Assembly: GCA_016781485.1 (NCBI GenBank)
Contig: JADDQH010000019.1
Coordinates: forward strand, 1-40,553
Reading direction: 5' to 3'
From: Chloroflexota bacterium
GTDB taxonomy: Bacteria; Chloroflexota; Limnocylindria; Limnocylindrales; CSP1-4
Length of the DNA stretch: 40,553 nucleotides
Shown: piece after piece, positions 3,755 to 17,319 of the stretch
Layout: every line of letters begins with the position of its first letter
How positions within the stretch are numbered: the stretch's first letter is position 1
Position numbers and translations under genes: made by a program
Notes under the pieces: model-generated
Databases searched by the model: none
What the model saw: only the letters and a program-made list of their open reading frames with translations
Told to the model about the DNA's origin: nothing

Positions 3755-3785
3755 TTGACCTTACAGCCGCTGTAGCGTCTAGCCT
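3755..3785 (+). promoter_or_regulatory. MerR-type promoter/operator: TTGACC-19 bp-TAGCCT
   Basis: TTGACC (3755-3760), 19-bp spacer, TAGCCT (3780-3785), spanning dyad GACCTTACAGC-C-GCTGTAGCGTC (9/11 matching arms); ATG of merR at 3792. Confidence 0.75.
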
Positions 3786-3791
3786 GCCGCC

Positions 3792-4190
3792 ATGAAGATC
3801 GGTGAAGTTGCTCGGCGCCTCGGCGTTACTCCTCAAGCGATCCGCTTCTATGAGGAGCGCGGGCTGCTGCCGGCACCGGACCGGGCCGACAACGACTACC
3901 GCGAGTACGGGCCCGAGGACTTCGAACGGCTCCGGCTCCTCGTCGGCCTGCGACAACTCGACGTGCCCCTCGACGCCGCGGCGCCGCTTGCGGTGCTGTG
4001 CGTCGAAGGTCGCTGCGAAGACGTGTCCGTCGGACTCCGCGAGGTCATTCGCGACCGCCGCGCCGAGATCGCGCGACGTCGAGCGGAGTTGGACCACCTC
4101 GATCGGAAGCTCCAGGTCCTCGACGAGAACCTCCTCGCCGGGAGCAAGCCGGAGGATGCCATCGCACTCGGTGAAGGAGAACGCAAGTGA
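3792..4190 (+). CDS. MerR family transcriptional regulator (metal/redox type)
   Basis: MKIGEVARRLGVTPQAIRFYEERGLLPAPDR... canonical MerR wHTH; CVEGRC pair; upstream MerR-type promoter. Confidence 0.92.
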   Translation: MKIGEVARRLGVTPQAIRFYEERGLLPAPDRADNDYREYGPEDFERLRLLVGLRQLDVPLDAAAPLAVLCVEGRCEDVSVGLREVIRDRRAEIARRRAELDHLDRKLQVLDENLLAGSKPEDAIALGEGERK

Positions 4191-5860
4191 TCGCGGAGGC
4201 CTTCGACGCGATCGTGATCGGTGCGGGCGAAGCCGGGGCGGTGGCGGCGAGCCGTGCCGTCGAGGCAGGCCACCGCGTCGCGATGATCTATCGCGAGCCG
4301 TACGGGAGCACCTGCGTCAACACCGGCTGCGTCCCGAGCAAGTTCCTGATCCACCGCGCCCGAGTCGCGCACGTCGTGCGCACAGCCGGACGGTTCCACG
4401 TCAAGACGAGTGGTCCGCAGGTCGACGTGGCAGGGATCATCGACGAAAAGAACGCGATGATCGACGCGCATCGCGACGAGGCGATGACGGGCGCACGTGC
4501 CGCTGCTGACCTCCTGACACTCATCGACGGCGAGGCCGCGTTCGTCGGCTCACACGAGGTCGAGGTCGCGGGGCGCCGACTGCGAGCCGAGAGGATCTTC
4601 ATCGCAACCGGGATGCGACCGACGCTCCCGCCGATCGAAGGGCTCGATGCGGTCCCGGCCCTCACCAACGAGACCGCGATGGAGCTCCGTGAAGTCCCCG
4701 AGCATCTCGTTGTCGTCGGGGGCGGATACATCGCGTGCGAGCTGGGCCAGGCATTCAAGCGCTTCGGCTCGGACGTCACGATCGTCCAGAGCGGGCAACA
4801 CCTCTGCCCGCGGGAAGAGCCCGACGTCAGCACTCTGCTCGAGCGCGCGTTCGCGCGGGAAGGGATCGAGGTGCACGTTGCCCACCGAGCTGCGCGCGTC
4901 GAACCCTCGGACGCCGGCGTCCGCCTGTTCGCGCGATCGAAGGACGGGCACCACCTCGTCGTCGAGGGTTCTCACCTGCTCGTCGCGACGGGGCGGACGC
5001 CGAACACGGAAGGGCTGAACCTCCCGCGCGCGGGCCTGGACGTCCGAGCCGACGGCGCGATCCCGGTGAACGACTACATGGAGACGAACGTGCCCGGGAT
5101 CTGGGCCATCGGCGACGTCAACGGCGAGCAACCGTTCACTCGGGTATGCCAGGAAGAGGCGAAGGTCGCCTACGCCAATGGCTTCGAAGGGCGACGGCAT
5201 CGGATCGACCGGTCCGCTCTCGGTCATGCGATCTTCACCGATCCCGAGATCGCAAGCGTCGGGCTGACCGAGCAGGAGGCTCGCGCGCAGGGCCGCGACG
5301 TGGCCGTCGGGCTGGTGACCTTCGACCAGATCGAGAAGGCCGAGATCATGGGCGAGACGACCGGACTCATCAAGTACGTCGTGGAACGGGAGAGCCGAAC
5401 GCTCCTCGGCGCCCATGTCATCGGTCCCGACGCCGCGAACCTCATCTACGACGCCTCGATCGTCATCGGCCAGCGAGGCCGGCTCGACGACATCGCCAAG
5501 ACGGTCGGGATCTTCCCGACGCTCCAGGAGGGCATGGAGGGGACGGCTCGCGGACTCCTGCGGCGACTTGCGCCCGACGAGGCCAAGCGACCGCTCGCCA
5601 CCACTCCAATCCACGCCGACGAAGCCGAAAGGAGGGACCTCGAAACGATGCACCAGAGCTTCCAGTGCCCGGCGTGTGCCGCGGACCTCGAGGTCAGCGA
5701 ACGACTTGGCGAGGTAGACGCGTCCGAGACCGGCGAGCCCGAGGTGGCGGACGCGAGTAACCGCGAAGAGCCCCTGACCAGCAGCCACTTCCAGTGTCCG
5801 GCCTGCGCGGCCGATCTCGATGTCAAGGAGGGGCTGGAGGTCCCGGCACGGACTTCGTAG
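4187..5860 (+). CDS. MerA-like FAD-dependent pyridine nucleotide-disulfide oxidoreductase with C-terminal duplicated CPAC motif
   Basis: FAD site VIGAGEAGAVAASRAVEAGH, redox-active STCVNTGCVPSKFLIHRA, NAD site VVGGGYIACELGQAFKRFG, dimerisation domain; unusual C-terminal FQCPACAADLEV...HFQCPACAADLDV. GTG start overlaps merR stop (GTGA). Confidence 0.9.
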   Translation: MIAEAFDAIVIGAGEAGAVAASRAVEAGHRVAMIYREPYGSTCVNTGCVPSKFLIHRARVAHVVRTAGRFHVKTSGPQVDVAGIIDEKNAMIDAHRDEAMTGARAAADLLTLIDGEAAFVGSHEVEVAGRRLRAERIFIATGMRPTLPPIEGLDAVPALTNETAMELREVPEHLVVVGGGYIACELGQAFKRFGSDVTIVQSGQHLCPREEPDVSTLLERAFAREGIEVHVAHRAARVEPSDAGVRLFARSKDGHHLVVEGSHLLVATGRTPNTEGLNLPRAGLDVRADGAIPVNDYMETNVPGIWAIGDVNGEQPFTRVCQEEAKVAYANGFEGRRHRIDRSALGHAIFTDPEIASVGLTEQEARAQGRDVAVGLVTFDQIEKAEIMGETTGLIKYVVERESRTLLGAHVIGPDAANLIYDASIVIGQRGRLDDIAKTVGIFPTLQEGMEGTARGLLRRLAPDEAKRPLATTPIHADEAERRDLETMHQSFQCPACAADLEVSERLGEVDASETGEPEVADASNREEPLTSSHFQCPACAADLDVKEGLEVPARTS

Positions 5861-6322: not shown

Positions 6323-6426
6323 GCGAACAGCCGGCGAGAAGGGGGGCGACCGCCGCTTGGGCGGCGGCAAGGCGCGTTCCAGCTGCTCGTCGCCGAAGCA
6401 GCTCGGGACGGCGTTAGCAGACTCGC

Positions 6427-7682
6427 CTACTGGTCGCGGGCGCGGAGGTAATCGCCAGCGAACGAGGCGAGCGGGAAGCGGTTCTCGGTGGCTCGGACAC
6501 CACTCCATTGGCTGATGAGGTCGCGGAACGCCTCGCCCACGGGTCGGATGCGGCGGTCGAGATCGTAGAGCCCGAGGGGATTGACGTGACCCGCGTCCTC
6601 TCGTAGTGCGGAGTCCCAATCCACCTGGTCGAGCAGGCTGTACCACGTGAAGCCGACCACTGGCAGCCCGTCCTGCTTCAGTCGGTGGACGTTCGCCCAT
6701 TCCTTCCGGAGCCAACGCGGCGCCTCGGCAGCATCCATCAGGTTCGTCTCGGTGTGCATCACCGGGAGCAGGTAGCGCGCGTAGTACTGGTGCGTGATCA
6801 CGTAGTAGCCGAACACCTCGCCCGACGCCGTGATGCTCCCATCGGGATGGACCAGGTGCTCGTTGGTCACGTAGTAGTCGGTCCCCATGATGCAGCGTGC
6901 CTTGACGCGGTTGCGCATGAACCGGGCGAACTCGTCACGGGTCATGCCGTTGTCCAGCAAGTATTGATACATCACAGCGTTCAGCGGATGCCCGTAGCTC
7001 AGGTCGAGCGCGAGGAAGCGCTTGTGGTTGTAGAAAGCGGCGATGGGGACGCAGCCCGGTTGCTCGGCGTGGAAGTATTCCGACGATTCGCTCTGGATGA
7101 AGATCGCGTCGGGACGAACCGAGAGGATCGCCTCCATCGCCAGCACGTTCGCCTGGCAGAGGTGCTTGAGCGCCCTGACAAAATGGCGGTCGCCCGAGCA
7201 GCGCTCGTTCCACCACCCGTACTGACCCGAGAAGGTCGCGGCGACGAAGATCTCGTTGACCGGGGTATAGAGACGGACCCAGGGGTAGCGCTCGGCGAAG
7301 GCGCGCGCGTACTCGGCGAAGAGGCGCGACCACCCCTCGTCCTGGAAGCCCCCGATCCAGTCTGGCACCCCGAAGTGGCAGAGATCGGCGATGGGAGTGA
7401 TCTCGAGTCTCCGAAGCTCCTCGAACGTCTCGTCCGCGAAACTCCAGTCGTACCTCCCCGGTCCCCGATGCGTCCGGTAGTACGGCGGCCCGTAGCGCAG
7501 ATGGTCGATGCCCAGTTCTTTGACGAGCCGAGATCCTCGCGCCAGCGCTCGTAGTGTCCTGACTTCTGCATCTCGTCGACGCGTCGCACTGTCCCGTCCG
7601 GGAGCGCGATCGTCGGGTAGCTGTTCTCGATACCGGTCGCGAACAGGAAGGGGTCGTGACCGAGATCGGCGGATCCGATCAC
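6427..7682 (-). CDS. Glycoside hydrolase family 1-like protein, frameshifted near 7535
   Basis: ELGIDHLRYGPPYYRTHRGPGRYDWSFADETFEELRRLEITPIADLCHFGVPDWIGG...LYTPVNEIF...; N-terminus (GTG at 7682, MIGSADLGHDPFLFATGIENSYPTIALPDGTVRRVDEMQKSGHYERWREDL) lies in another frame and joins by a 1-nt shift; GTGA overlap with SDR stop. Confidence 0.75.
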
Positions 7683-13807: not shown

Positions 13808-13838
13808 TTGACCTTCGAGCGGCTCTAGGGTCTAGGCT
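13808..13838 (+). promoter_or_regulatory. MerR-type promoter/operator: TTGACC-19 bp-TAGGCT
   Basis: TTGACC (13808-13813), 19-bp spacer, TAGGCT (13833-13838), dyad GACCTTCGAGC-G-GCTCTAGGGTC (9/11); ATG at 13845. Confidence 0.75.
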
Positions 13839-13844
13839 GCTCCC

Positions 13845-14243
13845 ATGTGCATCGGAGAGCTTGCCGAACGGCTCGGCACGACCCCCCATACCGTCCGCTT
13901 CTACGAACGCCTGGGCTTGGTCCCGGCGCCGGAGCGGAGCGAGAACGGTTACCGCGACTACGCCGAGCGCCATGTATCGCGGCTCCGGCTGCTGATCGGC
14001 CTGCGACAGCTCGACCTGCCGCTCGATCAGGCGGGAGAGCTGGCGTCGCTGTGTGCCGAGGGGCGTTGCGACGAGGTCTCGGAGGAGTTGCGGATCGCGC
14101 TCCGCGAGAAGCGCGCCGAGCTGGCCCGGCGGATGGACGAGATGCGCTACCTCGACGGACGGCTTGCTCATCTGGCCGGTCAGCTCGACACCGGAGAGTC
14201 GCCACGAGAACTCGTCACGCTTGGAAAGGAGGAACGCGGATGA
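13845..14243 (+). CDS. MerR family transcriptional regulator (paralogue of 3792..4190)
   Basis: MCIGELAERLGTTPHTVRFYERLGLVPAPERSENGYRDYAERHVSRLRLLIGLRQLDLPLDQAGELASLCAEGRCDEV. Confidence 0.92.
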   Translation: MCIGELAERLGTTPHTVRFYERLGLVPAPERSENGYRDYAERHVSRLRLLIGLRQLDLPLDQAGELASLCAEGRCDEVSEELRIALREKRAELARRMDEMRYLDGRLAHLAGQLDTGESPRELVTLGKEERG

Positions 14244-14305
14244 CGCCTGAGCGATGCAAGGACTGCTGCTGCGAGCATCACTGCTGCGGCTGCGGGGGCC
14301 GTTAG
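14240..14305 (+). CDS. 21-aa cysteine-rich microprotein (MTPERCKDCCCEHHCCGCGGR)
   Basis: ATG overlaps merR stop (ATGA), AAAGGAGG upstream, stop TAG followed within 10 nt by an intrinsic terminator; 7 Cys and 2 His in 21 residues. Too short for the supplied ORF track. Confidence 0.6.
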   Translation: MTPERCKDCCCEHHCCGCGGR

Positions 14306-14313
14306 GACCGAGA

Positions 14314-14347
14314 GAGGCCCGGTGGACACACCGGGCCTCCGCATTTT
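14314..14347 (+). terminator. Rho-independent terminator
   Basis: gaggcccggtg-gaca-caccgggcctc perfect 11-bp stem, 4-nt loop, followed by cgcatttt. Confidence 0.85.
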
Positions 14348-14475: not shown

Positions 14476-14802
14476 ATGAAAGAGATCGACCACAAGCCGC
14501 GCGTTGAATTCCTCTGGTTCCAGGATTGCCCGAACCACGAAGTCGCGCGACAGCTCGTCCTCGACGTGATCGCCGAGACGGGCGCCGAGGTCGAGTTCCG
14601 CGACATCGACGCGAGCGATCCGGCGACGGCACAAGCGCTTCACTTCCCCGGCTCGCCGACGGTCCGCGTCGACGGGCGAGACGTTGATCCGCACTTCACG
14701 GACCCCGGCGACTACACCCCGCGGTGTCGGCTGTACCGGCACGGTGGGCGAACGAGCGGCGTTCCGGACCGAGCGTGGATCGAGCAAGCGCTCGCCCGGT
14801 GA
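14476..14802 (+). CDS. Thioredoxin-like protein (mer-locus associated)
   Basis: VEFLWFQDCPNHEVARQLVLDVIAETGAEVEFRDIDASDPATAQALHFPGSPTVRVDGRDVDP: thioredoxin-fold small protein with GSPTV cis-Pro motif. Confidence 0.72.
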   Translation: MKEIDHKPRVEFLWFQDCPNHEVARQLVLDVIAETGAEVEFRDIDASDPATAQALHFPGSPTVRVDGRDVDPHFTDPGDYTPRCRLYRHGGRTSGVPDRAWIEQALAR

Positions 14803-14898: not shown

Positions 14899-16257
14899 AT
14901 GGAGCAGTTTGACTTTGTGATCATCGGCGCGGGTACGGCAGGAGAGGCCGCGGCCCATCTCGCGGCGTCGCGCGGCGCGAGTGTGGCGATCATCGACCGC
15001 GAGCTCTTCGGAGGTTCCTGCCCGTTCTGGGCCTGCATGCCCTCGAAGGCCTTACTGCACGCCGCGTCCGTGCACGCCTCGGGCGGCGAGTACCCCTGGC
15101 CGAAGGCATCGGCGTTCAGGGACTACATGATCAACCGCGAGGGGATCGACTTCCCCGATGACGGCGGACACGCCCGGAGCCTCGAGGAAGCGGGGGCAAA
15201 GGTCATCCGGGGGACCGCGCACATCGCCGGACCGAGTACGGTGTCCGTGGAGTCGGACGGCCGACGCGACACGCTGCTCGCGACGAAGGCGATCGTCGTC
15301 GCCGTCGGGACGAACCCCACGATCCCCGAGATCCCGGGGCTCGACGCCATCAGACCCTGGACGAATCGGGAAGGGACAGCGACCCGCGACCTACCGCAGA
15401 GCCTCGCGATCCTCGGCGGTGGACCGACCGCTGTCGAGCTCGCGCAGGTCTATGCCCGCTACGGCGTTCCGGTGACGATCGTCGACCGGAACGAGCGACT
15501 CAATCACCGCGACCACCCGCGGAACTCCGAGGCGCTCGAGAGGGCACTCGTCAACGACGGTGTGCGGATCAGGAAGGGTGTCGAGGCTCGACTCGTCATT
15601 CCCGGCGGCGCGGGCGGGCCGCACTGCCTCGAGCTCTCGGACGGGAGCTCGCTTGAAGTGCACGAGGTCCTTCTTGCCGTGGGGAGGACGGCACCCGTCG
15701 ACGGGCTCGGGCTCGAAACCGTTGGCGCCAAGATCGAGCGCGGCCGGCCGGTCGTGGACGACAGGCTGCGAGCCGCGGACGGAGTGTTCGTCGTGGGCGA
15801 TGCCGCGGGACCCGAGATGCACACGCACCTGGCGCATTACCAGGGAGAGATAGCGGCGCGAATCGCCCTGGGCGAAGACGTCCGGCCCGATCATCGCGCG
15901 ATCCCTCGCGCCACCTACACCGATCCGGAAACGGCGGGTGTCGGTCTGCGGCTCGATCAGGCGCAACAGCAGGGGTACGACGCGTTCGAGGAGACCGCCG
16001 ATCTCGCCACATCGGCGAAGGGCTACGTGACCGAGTCGTTCGGACACGTGAGCATCGTCGTGGACAGGCGTGAGCGCGTCCTGCTCGGCGCGTTCATCGC
16101 CGGCCCCGGCGCGAGCGAGGCGATCCACGAGGCGGTCCTCGCGATCAAGACCCGCACCGCGCTCTCGGTCCTCGCCGACACCATCCATGCTTTTCCGACG
16201 ACCGCCCGCGTCATGGGCGGCCTGTTCGGCGAGGCCGCGAAGAAGTCGGAGGGATAG
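14899..16257 (+). CDS. NAD(P)/FAD-dependent disulfide oxidoreductase (MerA/mycothione reductase-like)
   Basis: FVIIGAGTAGEAAAHLAASRGASVAIIDRELFGGSCPFWACMPSKALLHAA; LAILGGGPTAVELAQVYARYGVPVTIVDR; VFVVGDAAGPEMHTHLAHYQGEIAARIA. Confidence 0.9.
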   Translation: MEQFDFVIIGAGTAGEAAAHLAASRGASVAIIDRELFGGSCPFWACMPSKALLHAASVHASGGEYPWPKASAFRDYMINREGIDFPDDGGHARSLEEAGAKVIRGTAHIAGPSTVSVESDGRRDTLLATKAIVVAVGTNPTIPEIPGLDAIRPWTNREGTATRDLPQSLAILGGGPTAVELAQVYARYGVPVTIVDRNERLNHRDHPRNSEALERALVNDGVRIRKGVEARLVIPGGAGGPHCLELSDGSSLEVHEVLLAVGRTAPVDGLGLETVGAKIERGRPVVDDRLRAADGVFVVGDAAGPEMHTHLAHYQGEIAARIALGEDVRPDHRAIPRATYTDPETAGVGLRLDQAQQQGYDAFEETADLATSAKGYVTESFGHVSIVVDRRERVLLGAFIAGPGASEAIHEAVLAIKTRTALSVLADTIHAFPTTARVMGGLFGEAAKKSEG

Positions 16258-16261
16258 CTCG

Positions 16262-16780
16262 ATGACCCGGACAGCCACCATCCCGGCGGAGGTGACTCCG
16301 GCAGCCCTCGGGCCCGGCCAGGAGTCGGTATGGGACTACCCCCGGCCGCCGCGAGTGGAGCCAACGGCGGAGCGGGCCAGGGTGGTCGTAGATGGCACGA
16401 CGATCGCCGACAGCTCCGGCGCGTTGCGCGTCCTCGAGTTCGGGGGCCCGCCCGTGTACTACTTCCCGCGTGACGACGTCCGGATGGACCTCCTCCACGA
16501 GAGCCCGCACACGACCGTCTGCGAGTGGAAAGGCAACGCCTCGTACTACTCGCTGACCATGGGCCAGCGCACGGTCCACAACGTTGCATGGACGTACCGC
16601 GACCCGTCCCCCGGTTACGAGGCCATCCGCGACCATCTCGCGTTCTACGCGGGACTCGTCGACGAGGCCTACGTCGGCGAGGAGCGTGTCCTCCCGCAGC
16701 CCGGCCGCTTCTACGGCGGCTGGATCACGAGCCGCGTCGTCGGTCCCTTCAAGGGTGGCCCTGGGAGCGCCCACTGGTGA
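16262..16780 (+). CDS. DUF427 domain-containing protein
   Basis: RVVVDGTTIADSSGALRVLEFGGPPVYYFPRDDVRMDLLHESPHTTVCEWKGNASYYSL...NVAWTYRDPSPGYEAIRDHLAFYAG. Confidence 0.9.
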   Translation: MTRTATIPAEVTPAALGPGQESVWDYPRPPRVEPTAERARVVVDGTTIADSSGALRVLEFGGPPVYYFPRDDVRMDLLHESPHTTVCEWKGNASYYSLTMGQRTVHNVAWTYRDPSPGYEAIRDHLAFYAGLVDEAYVGEERVLPQPGRFYGGWITSRVVGPFKGGPGSAHW

Positions 16781-17319
16781 GCAGCGTTCGCTCCCGCATC
16801 GACATCGTCGCCGCACCGACTCCGAAGCCCCGGCACTGGCGCTCGCTGCTCGTCCCGCTGGGAGCGTTCGAGCGCGCAGAGTGGGCCGTCGCCGTCATCG
16901 CGACGCTTGCTGCGCTCGCCCTGCTCGGCATCCCGACGGCAGTCGTCCCGACCCCGCTCTTTGGTCGGACGCTCGAAACCGACGCCGTGAATGTCGCGGT
17001 CTGGCTCGCCTCGGCGCCGCTCATCGGGATCCTGGTCGCGACGTACGCGCCGTCGCTGCGCCTTACTCCTGTCGAGCGCTCGCCCGTAGGTCGGATCTCG
17101 ACCGCCGGCGCGGCGGCGTACCTGGCGATCGGCTGTCCGGTCTGCAACAAGGTCCTGCTGGTACTCCTGGGGACGAACGGCGCCCTCCAGATCTTTGCGC
17201 CGCTCCAGCCGTTGATCGGCGTGCTTGCGGTCGGATCGCTCACGGCGATGCTCGTCTGGCGCCTCCGGCAGCTCGCGGTCCCACGCTCGGCGTGCGCGAC
17301 GCCGGTCCCGTACGGATAG
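16777..17319 (+). CDS. Hypothetical multi-TM membrane protein with GCPVCNK motif
   Basis: GTG start overlapping DUF427 stop (GTGA); WAVAVIATLAALALLGIP..., AAYLAIGCPVCNKVLLVLLGTNGALQIFAPLQPLIGVLAVGSLTAMLVW. Confidence 0.8.
   Translation: MSSVRSRIDIVAAPTPKPRHWRSLLVPLGAFERAEWAVAVIATLAALALLGIPTAVVPTPLFGRTLETDAVNVAVWLASAPLIGILVATYAPSLRLTPVERSPVGRISTAGAAAYLAIGCPVCNKVLLVLLGTNGALQIFAPLQPLIGVLAVGSLTAMLVWRLRQLAVPRSACATPVPYG

Follow-up and report, generated by a model that had tools for sequence, protein, structure and literature searches.

Metallothioneins are little known beyond a few bacterial groups, and proteins as short as the one described here are commonly missed by gene callers. MymT, the copper metallothionein of mycobacteria, has about 53 residues, and no characterised bacterial metallothionein is known to be as short as 21 residues. 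Nearest in logic to the present locus is SmtA/SmtB, which combines a small cysteine-rich protein with a dedicated metal sensor and an operator, with SmtB being divergently encoded and acting as a repressor (PMC7387436). The metallothionein operon of Pseudomonas carries no metal-responsive regulator (PMC7387436). The uORFs of CruR and CutF (DUF2946), small cysteine-containing ORFs within metal operons, are longer than the ORF described here, stand first in their operons, harbor a stall motif and are followed by a conserved regulated gene (PMC9426467, PMC9973294).

The locus reported here lies in a 40,553-nucleotide stretch of DNA, referred to as the window, which is an entire contig (C105) of a 2.8-Mb Chloroflexota genome of 87.6% completeness. 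As in SmtA/SmtB, a small cysteine-rich protein goes with a metalloregulator and an operator, and in one relative (L071) the peptide is paired with a regulator of the ArsR/SmtB family itself. In contrast to SmtA/SmtB, the regulator is mainly of the MerR family, the two genes share one operon with a stop/start overlap, and the peptide, of 17-21 residues in what we call type A, is unrelated in sequence. MymT and the Pseudomonas metallothioneins are likewise short bacterial cysteine-rich proteins, with no sequence match to the microprotein. The likeness to mer operons comprises an activatable MerR-type promoter with its regulator and, in one relative, a true merA beside a type B ORF; however, the MerR of the window falls under the curated MerR cut-off and lacks the C-terminal cysteine pair, and the neighbouring reductase is not MerA. 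As for CruR and CutF, a CxxC is present here, but no type A peptide has a Pro-rich or RAPP end and there is no conserved downstream gene. By analogy, the microprotein would behave as part of a metallothionein-regulator pair in logic, outside the named metallothionein families. Our literature search found nothing joining metallothionein, Chloroflexota and the MerR family.

Results

The regulator gene and the ORF coupled to it comprise the following features of the window:

13845 to 14243, + strand: merR, 132 residues, with a MerR helix-turn-helix (PF13411 at 67.5 bits and PF00376 at 64.7 bits, both above cut-off)
14225 to 14232, + strand: Shine-Dalgarno sequence AAAGGAGG, within the 3' end of merR and kept in related loci
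14240 to 14305, + strand: micro-ORF of type A, MTPERCKDCCCEHHCCGCGGR, from ORF reading, family conservation and a shuffle test

The initial annotation had described a 21-residue, seven-cysteine ORF with an ATGA overlap, an upstream Shine-Dalgarno sequence and a TAG stop, all of which we found in place. MTPERCKDCCCEHHCCGCGGR contains 7 cysteines, 2 histidines and no Phe, Trp or Tyr; its ATG overlaps the TGA stop of merR and lies 7 nt past AAAGGAGG. This is the only ORF of up to 45 residues with at least 7 cysteines in the window, as compared to a mean of 0.025 in dinucleotide shuffles, and 0 of 40 shuffled windows yielded such an ORF that also had a Shine-Dalgarno sequence and at least 30% cysteine. 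The peptide and its relatives (17-43 residues, 6-11 cysteines) are small, cysteine-rich and poor in aromatic residues, as bacterial metallothioneins are. Type A gave no match in Pfam, NCBIfam, PHROGs or PDB, including the curated metallothionein models; type B gave none in NCBIfam, and PHROGs and PDB held none for the family. The micro-ORF is a real conserved gene and belongs to a family of very small Chloroflexota proteins, not described before, that probably sequester toxic heavy metals.

Two main types were defined, type A with 7 cysteines (CxxCCC[DE]xHCCG[CN], also written CxxCCC[DE]xHCCGC) and type B with 10 (CDCxCGxCCGCxxCxCxCxC). Across 177 class genomes, 11 further MerRs share 60% identity or more with the MerR of the window (the eleventh, G165:C273, being taken as L061), and every one has a cysteine-rich micro-ORF with Shine-Dalgarno sequence and ATG at or overlapping the merR stop; this set was found via MerR similarity, the micro-ORF playing no part. 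Loss of the cysteine pattern or of the Shine-Dalgarno-ATG arrangement in homologous merR loci had been named at the outset as what would speak against the gene; both were retained. Among the four close MerRs of the own genome (L001, the window locus, L002, L003 and L004), L002 and L004 have cysteine-rich ORFs on the merR stop, MCDCSCGQCCGCGGCRCGCACRGHAR and MTCDCPCGTCCGCRGCGCPCPCRSHSSNPDTDTGGGK, respectively. The frame of the micro-ORF relative to merR differs between L001 and L002, which argues for coupling and not frameshifting; with a separate Shine-Dalgarno sequence and start at each locus, a frameshift extension of MerR was ruled out. An adjoining micro-ORF is missing from L003 and from L020, which has a type B ORF further along the operon. 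A third cysteine-rich form, MAMTNCECGPDCPCGPCC, overlaps the more distant merR of L075.

Scanning 85,462 species' genomes with the type A DNA motif returned 18 stretches, 15 of them in Chloroflexota, where 12 lie behind a MerR and one (L071/L054) follows a metalloregulator of the ArsR/SmtB family (85.4 bits against a cut-off of 55); the remaining two, L049 and L052, stand without an upstream regulator, L052 also lacking a Shine-Dalgarno sequence. The Rhodobacteraceae matches L056, L058 and L060 were counted as chance because they have neither a start with a Shine-Dalgarno sequence nor a merR. The Shine-Dalgarno sequence is strong in all related loci but one doubtful case. A stricter type A motif, sought in 400 genomes of the phylum, was found here only, and the group MerRs are almost restricted to the class. 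The type B motif is present in 9 of the 177 class genomes, its reversed-pattern control in none of them. In ten type A loci recovered through MerR homology, the 14-codon core has 6, 3 and 10 variable columns at the first, second and third codon positions (P = 0.019), a dN/dS of 0.35, and cysteine codons divided into 59 TGC and 10 TGT. This purifying pattern is supportive but not decisive, given a sample of only 14 codons.

Control of the locus centers on these elements:

13808 to 13838, + strand: MerR-type promoter/operator of merR, TTGACC, 19-bp spacer with dyad, TAGGCT (PWM 44.7)
3755 to 3781, + strand: second MerR-type operator, ahead of a paralogous merR (PWM 44.2)
3792 to 4190, + strand: paralogous merR, 53% identical, no micro-ORF, its stop overlapping a reductase start

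The start of merR lies 7 nt past its operator, and the merR message is probably leaderless, to judge from this spacing. Every group merR is preceded by TTGACA/C, 19 bp and TAGGNT, with a spacer dyad and the ATG a few bases on. The PWM recognized two MerR-type operators in the window, each at a merR (best shuffle 4.5), and five genome-wide, all ahead of group merRs, a count bounded by the 87.6% completeness of the genome and by sites diverged beyond the pattern. The micro-ORF is followed at L002 by a gene on the opposite strand and at L001 by a hairpin, leaving no other clear output there; the microprotein thus appears as the sole clear co-regulated output at both loci. The MerR at 13845-14243 has Cys70 and Cys75, common to all group MerRs; Cys75 aligns with Cys82 of Tn501 MerR and is the only equivalent in the Cys82/117/126 set of that protein. 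A dimer-helix cysteine in MerRs is a mark of divalent-metal sensors, which points to Hg, Cd, Pb or Zn rather than Cu(I) as the likely inducer. A mercury-specific system was ruled out, the MerR (67.6 bits against 150.85 for the NCBIfam MerR equivalog) and the window reductase both being below curated cut-offs. Plasmid transfer was also rejected; similarity to actinobacterial regulators is at the helix-turn-helix level only.

Beyond the micro-ORF, and beside the paralogous merR, the following were noted:

14314 to 14339, + strand: GC-rich hairpin, 11-bp stem, weak T tract CGCATTTT, beginning 9 nt past the micro-ORF stop
14479 to 14802, + strand: DF-family (seleno)protein relative
14899 to 16257, + strand: MerA-like pyridine nucleotide-disulphide reductase, 280.7 bits against the TIGR02053 MerA cut-off of 454.45
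4187 to 5860, + strand: MerA-like reductase coupled to the paralogous merR, 412.6 bits, under the MerA cut-off

The strong rho-independent terminator of the initial annotation is an overstatement in that, strong as the hairpin is, its T tract is weak and a consensus terminator scan did not list it. The hairpin is probably the operon end, and the DF-family gene and the reductase could be reached by read-through. A riboswitch or other known RNA was ruled out, the Rfam match being sub-threshold (18 vs. 46.6 bits) and on the other strand. MerA-like remains a fair description of the reductase at 14899-16257 but nothing beyond that, as evidenced by its score and by its C-terminus, ...GEAAKKSEG, which lacks the CC of MerA. 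The reductase at 4187-5860 carries a C-terminal extension with two FQCPACAADL zinc-ribbon-like repeats. DF-family genes lie behind type B ORFs in four other genomes and behind type A in the window; the copies behind the microprotein (L083, L084, L085, L088) are 55-62% identical to that at 14479-14802. Gene order in L042 is merR, true merA (521.6 bits, cut-off 454.45), type B ORF and membrane protein, and in L004 the type B ORF is located behind merR and ahead of a MerA-like reductase. The membrane protein, with a GCPVCNK motif and no Pfam match, is found both at 16745-17319, near the redox gene of the window, and in L042 (853-1407), behind merA and type B.

Types A and B intermix on the MerR tree, type B falling inside the type A MerR clade, and L053 has a type A ORF on a distant MerR grouped with L075 (support 100/97); the module has moved between regulators. 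L041 and L044, which pair together on this tree, encode MerR and type B as one in-frame fusion, with the internal Shine-Dalgarno sequence and ATG retained. A sister MerR clade (L021, L023-L036, L074) has no microprotein and in most members a CC-x11-C-x-CC C-terminal tail. The own genome has a fifth group-related MerR, L005 (C102:474-842, - strand; 189 residues), with the operator of the group and a long cysteine-rich tail in cis, EMLSCDCGCVGSGCTCGCTCC...ACDCGCCG.

Discussion

We consider it reasonably probable that the microprotein is the metal-induced effector of an autoregulated two-gene merR operon, acting as a minimal metallothionein-like peptide for soft metals. The gene, its conservation and coupling, the operator, the closed operator set and the exchange of regulators were observed in this analysis; translation, induction by metal, metal binding and the identity of the metal are what we infer. 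We surmise that a soft, divalent heavy-metal ion (Hg, Cd, Pb or Zn type) would bind MerR at Cys70/Cys75, and that metal-loaded MerR would then activate its own 19-bp-spaced promoter. As the message would begin at or near the merR ATG, merR itself is probably weakly translated, and the strong Shine-Dalgarno sequence at its 3' end would drive a high output of the coupled 21-residue peptide. The seven cysteines and two histidines may enclose the metal in a small thiolate cluster, and by reducing free metal the peptide would turn MerR off again. In favor of this effector role are: 1) the micro-ORF at 11 of 11 MerRs and the 15 Chloroflexota loci; 2) the codon pattern; 3) the five operators, since L001 and L002 would be regulons with no clear output if there were no effector peptide; 4) the regulator swaps, the merA of L042 and Cys75. 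Counted against it are the shortness of the peptide relative to known bacterial metallothioneins, L049 and L052 without a regulator, L003 and L020 without an adjoining micro-ORF, a dN/dS drawn from 14 codons, and the potential read-through into the DF-family and reductase genes. A co-transcribed, translationally coupled and probably metal-induced thiolate peptide, proposed in part in the initial annotation, is favored by conservation, Shine-Dalgarno sequence, operator and swapped regulators.

The fusions and the cysteine content of the regulators also bear on a different role, in which the peptide is a detached metal-binding domain that docks on MerR, supplies the missing thiolates of the C-terminal loop and tunes the response, with no part in detoxification. 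The group MerRs do have Cys70/Cys75 and no C-terminal cysteines, the sister clade carries such residues in cis, L041 and L044 have type B as a MerR fusion, and L005 has a different fused cysteine-rich tail. However, a regulator of the ArsR family can also precede type A, types A and B swap within one MerR clade, some group MerRs operate with no micro-ORF beside them, the internal Shine-Dalgarno sequence and ATG persist in the fused genes, and a pure co-sensor with its own operator as sole target would lack an output. We regard a split sensor as rather unlikely, and weaker than the effector role because the peptides follow ArsR, exchange between MerRs and as co-sensors would lack an output. That MerR and the coupled peptide form a sensor in trans, the fused (L041, L044, L005), detached (types A and B) and in-cis (sister clade) states being those of one evolving module, seems to us unlikely.

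If the peptide served other proteins, it might act in the manner of the NmerA domain and deliver Hg(II) or a comparable ion to MerA or a MerA-like reductase in the cytosol. This would suit type B directly behind the true merA of L042, type B between merR and the MerA-like reductase of L004, and the MerA-like reductase 0.6 kb downstream in the window. Type A merR-micro-ORF pairs mostly stand alone, however, with no reductase nearby at most loci, and that of the window lacks the C-terminal CC and is far under the MerA cut-off; with a true merA in L042 only, the partnership with the adjacent reductase first proposed is not supported, and we deem a chaperone quite unlikely. The hairpin directly past the stop, and the co-oriented DF-family and reductase genes that lie downstream in the window, invite a reading of the ORF as a leader peptide, with cysteine supply or metal binding by the nascent chain setting read-through into these two genes (cf. 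CruR, CutF), the more so as metal-sensing uORFs are known (PMC9426467, PMC9973294). However, type A pairs are followed by unrelated genes (DUF4032 kinase-like, alpha/beta hydrolase, FAA hydrolase, solute-binding protein), frequently in the opposite orientation, the micro-ORF is second and not first in the operon, a RAPP or Pro-rich stall motif is absent, and conserved His, Gly and acidic residues together with the MerR fusions indicate a protein product. With no conserved downstream gene, attenuation, including the Cys-codon version initially suggested, is disfavored and appears very improbable. TGC repeats in high-GC DNA can yield cysteine-rich frames, and a purine run may resemble a Shine-Dalgarno sequence by accident; yet the conservation across species with synonymous variation, the shuffles with none and the reversed-pattern control of 0 make a non-coding origin scarcely credible.

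With the peptide taken as a metal-induced effector, the conserved Chloroflexota family, with peptides of 17-40 residues linked to MerR and, once, ArsR regulators, would extend the known metallothionein-regulator pairs to MerR control, and would offer a very small natural heavy-metal chelator for study. More members may be sought by the combination of a regulator stop, a Shine-Dalgarno sequence and the cysteine pattern.

Further arrangements around these regulators were recorded. In L073/L085 (G006:C46), an internal deletion, possibly an assembly error, leaves no more than the first codons of merR, with promoter, Shine-Dalgarno sequence and type B ORF intact; directly upstream lies an ABC-transporter ATPase that carries a fused YHS domain. 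L076 (G064:C101:1158-1523, - strand) and other frames of 270-300 residues run from a MerR N-terminus into a domain resembling low-molecular-weight phosphatase/arsenate reductase, IRVLFVCTGNSG, and are possible MerR-ArsC fusions. In L061, a second, different MerR of 150 residues (6350-6802) is located beside the type A merR-micro-ORF pair; further on lies a fragment of a MerA-like reductase.
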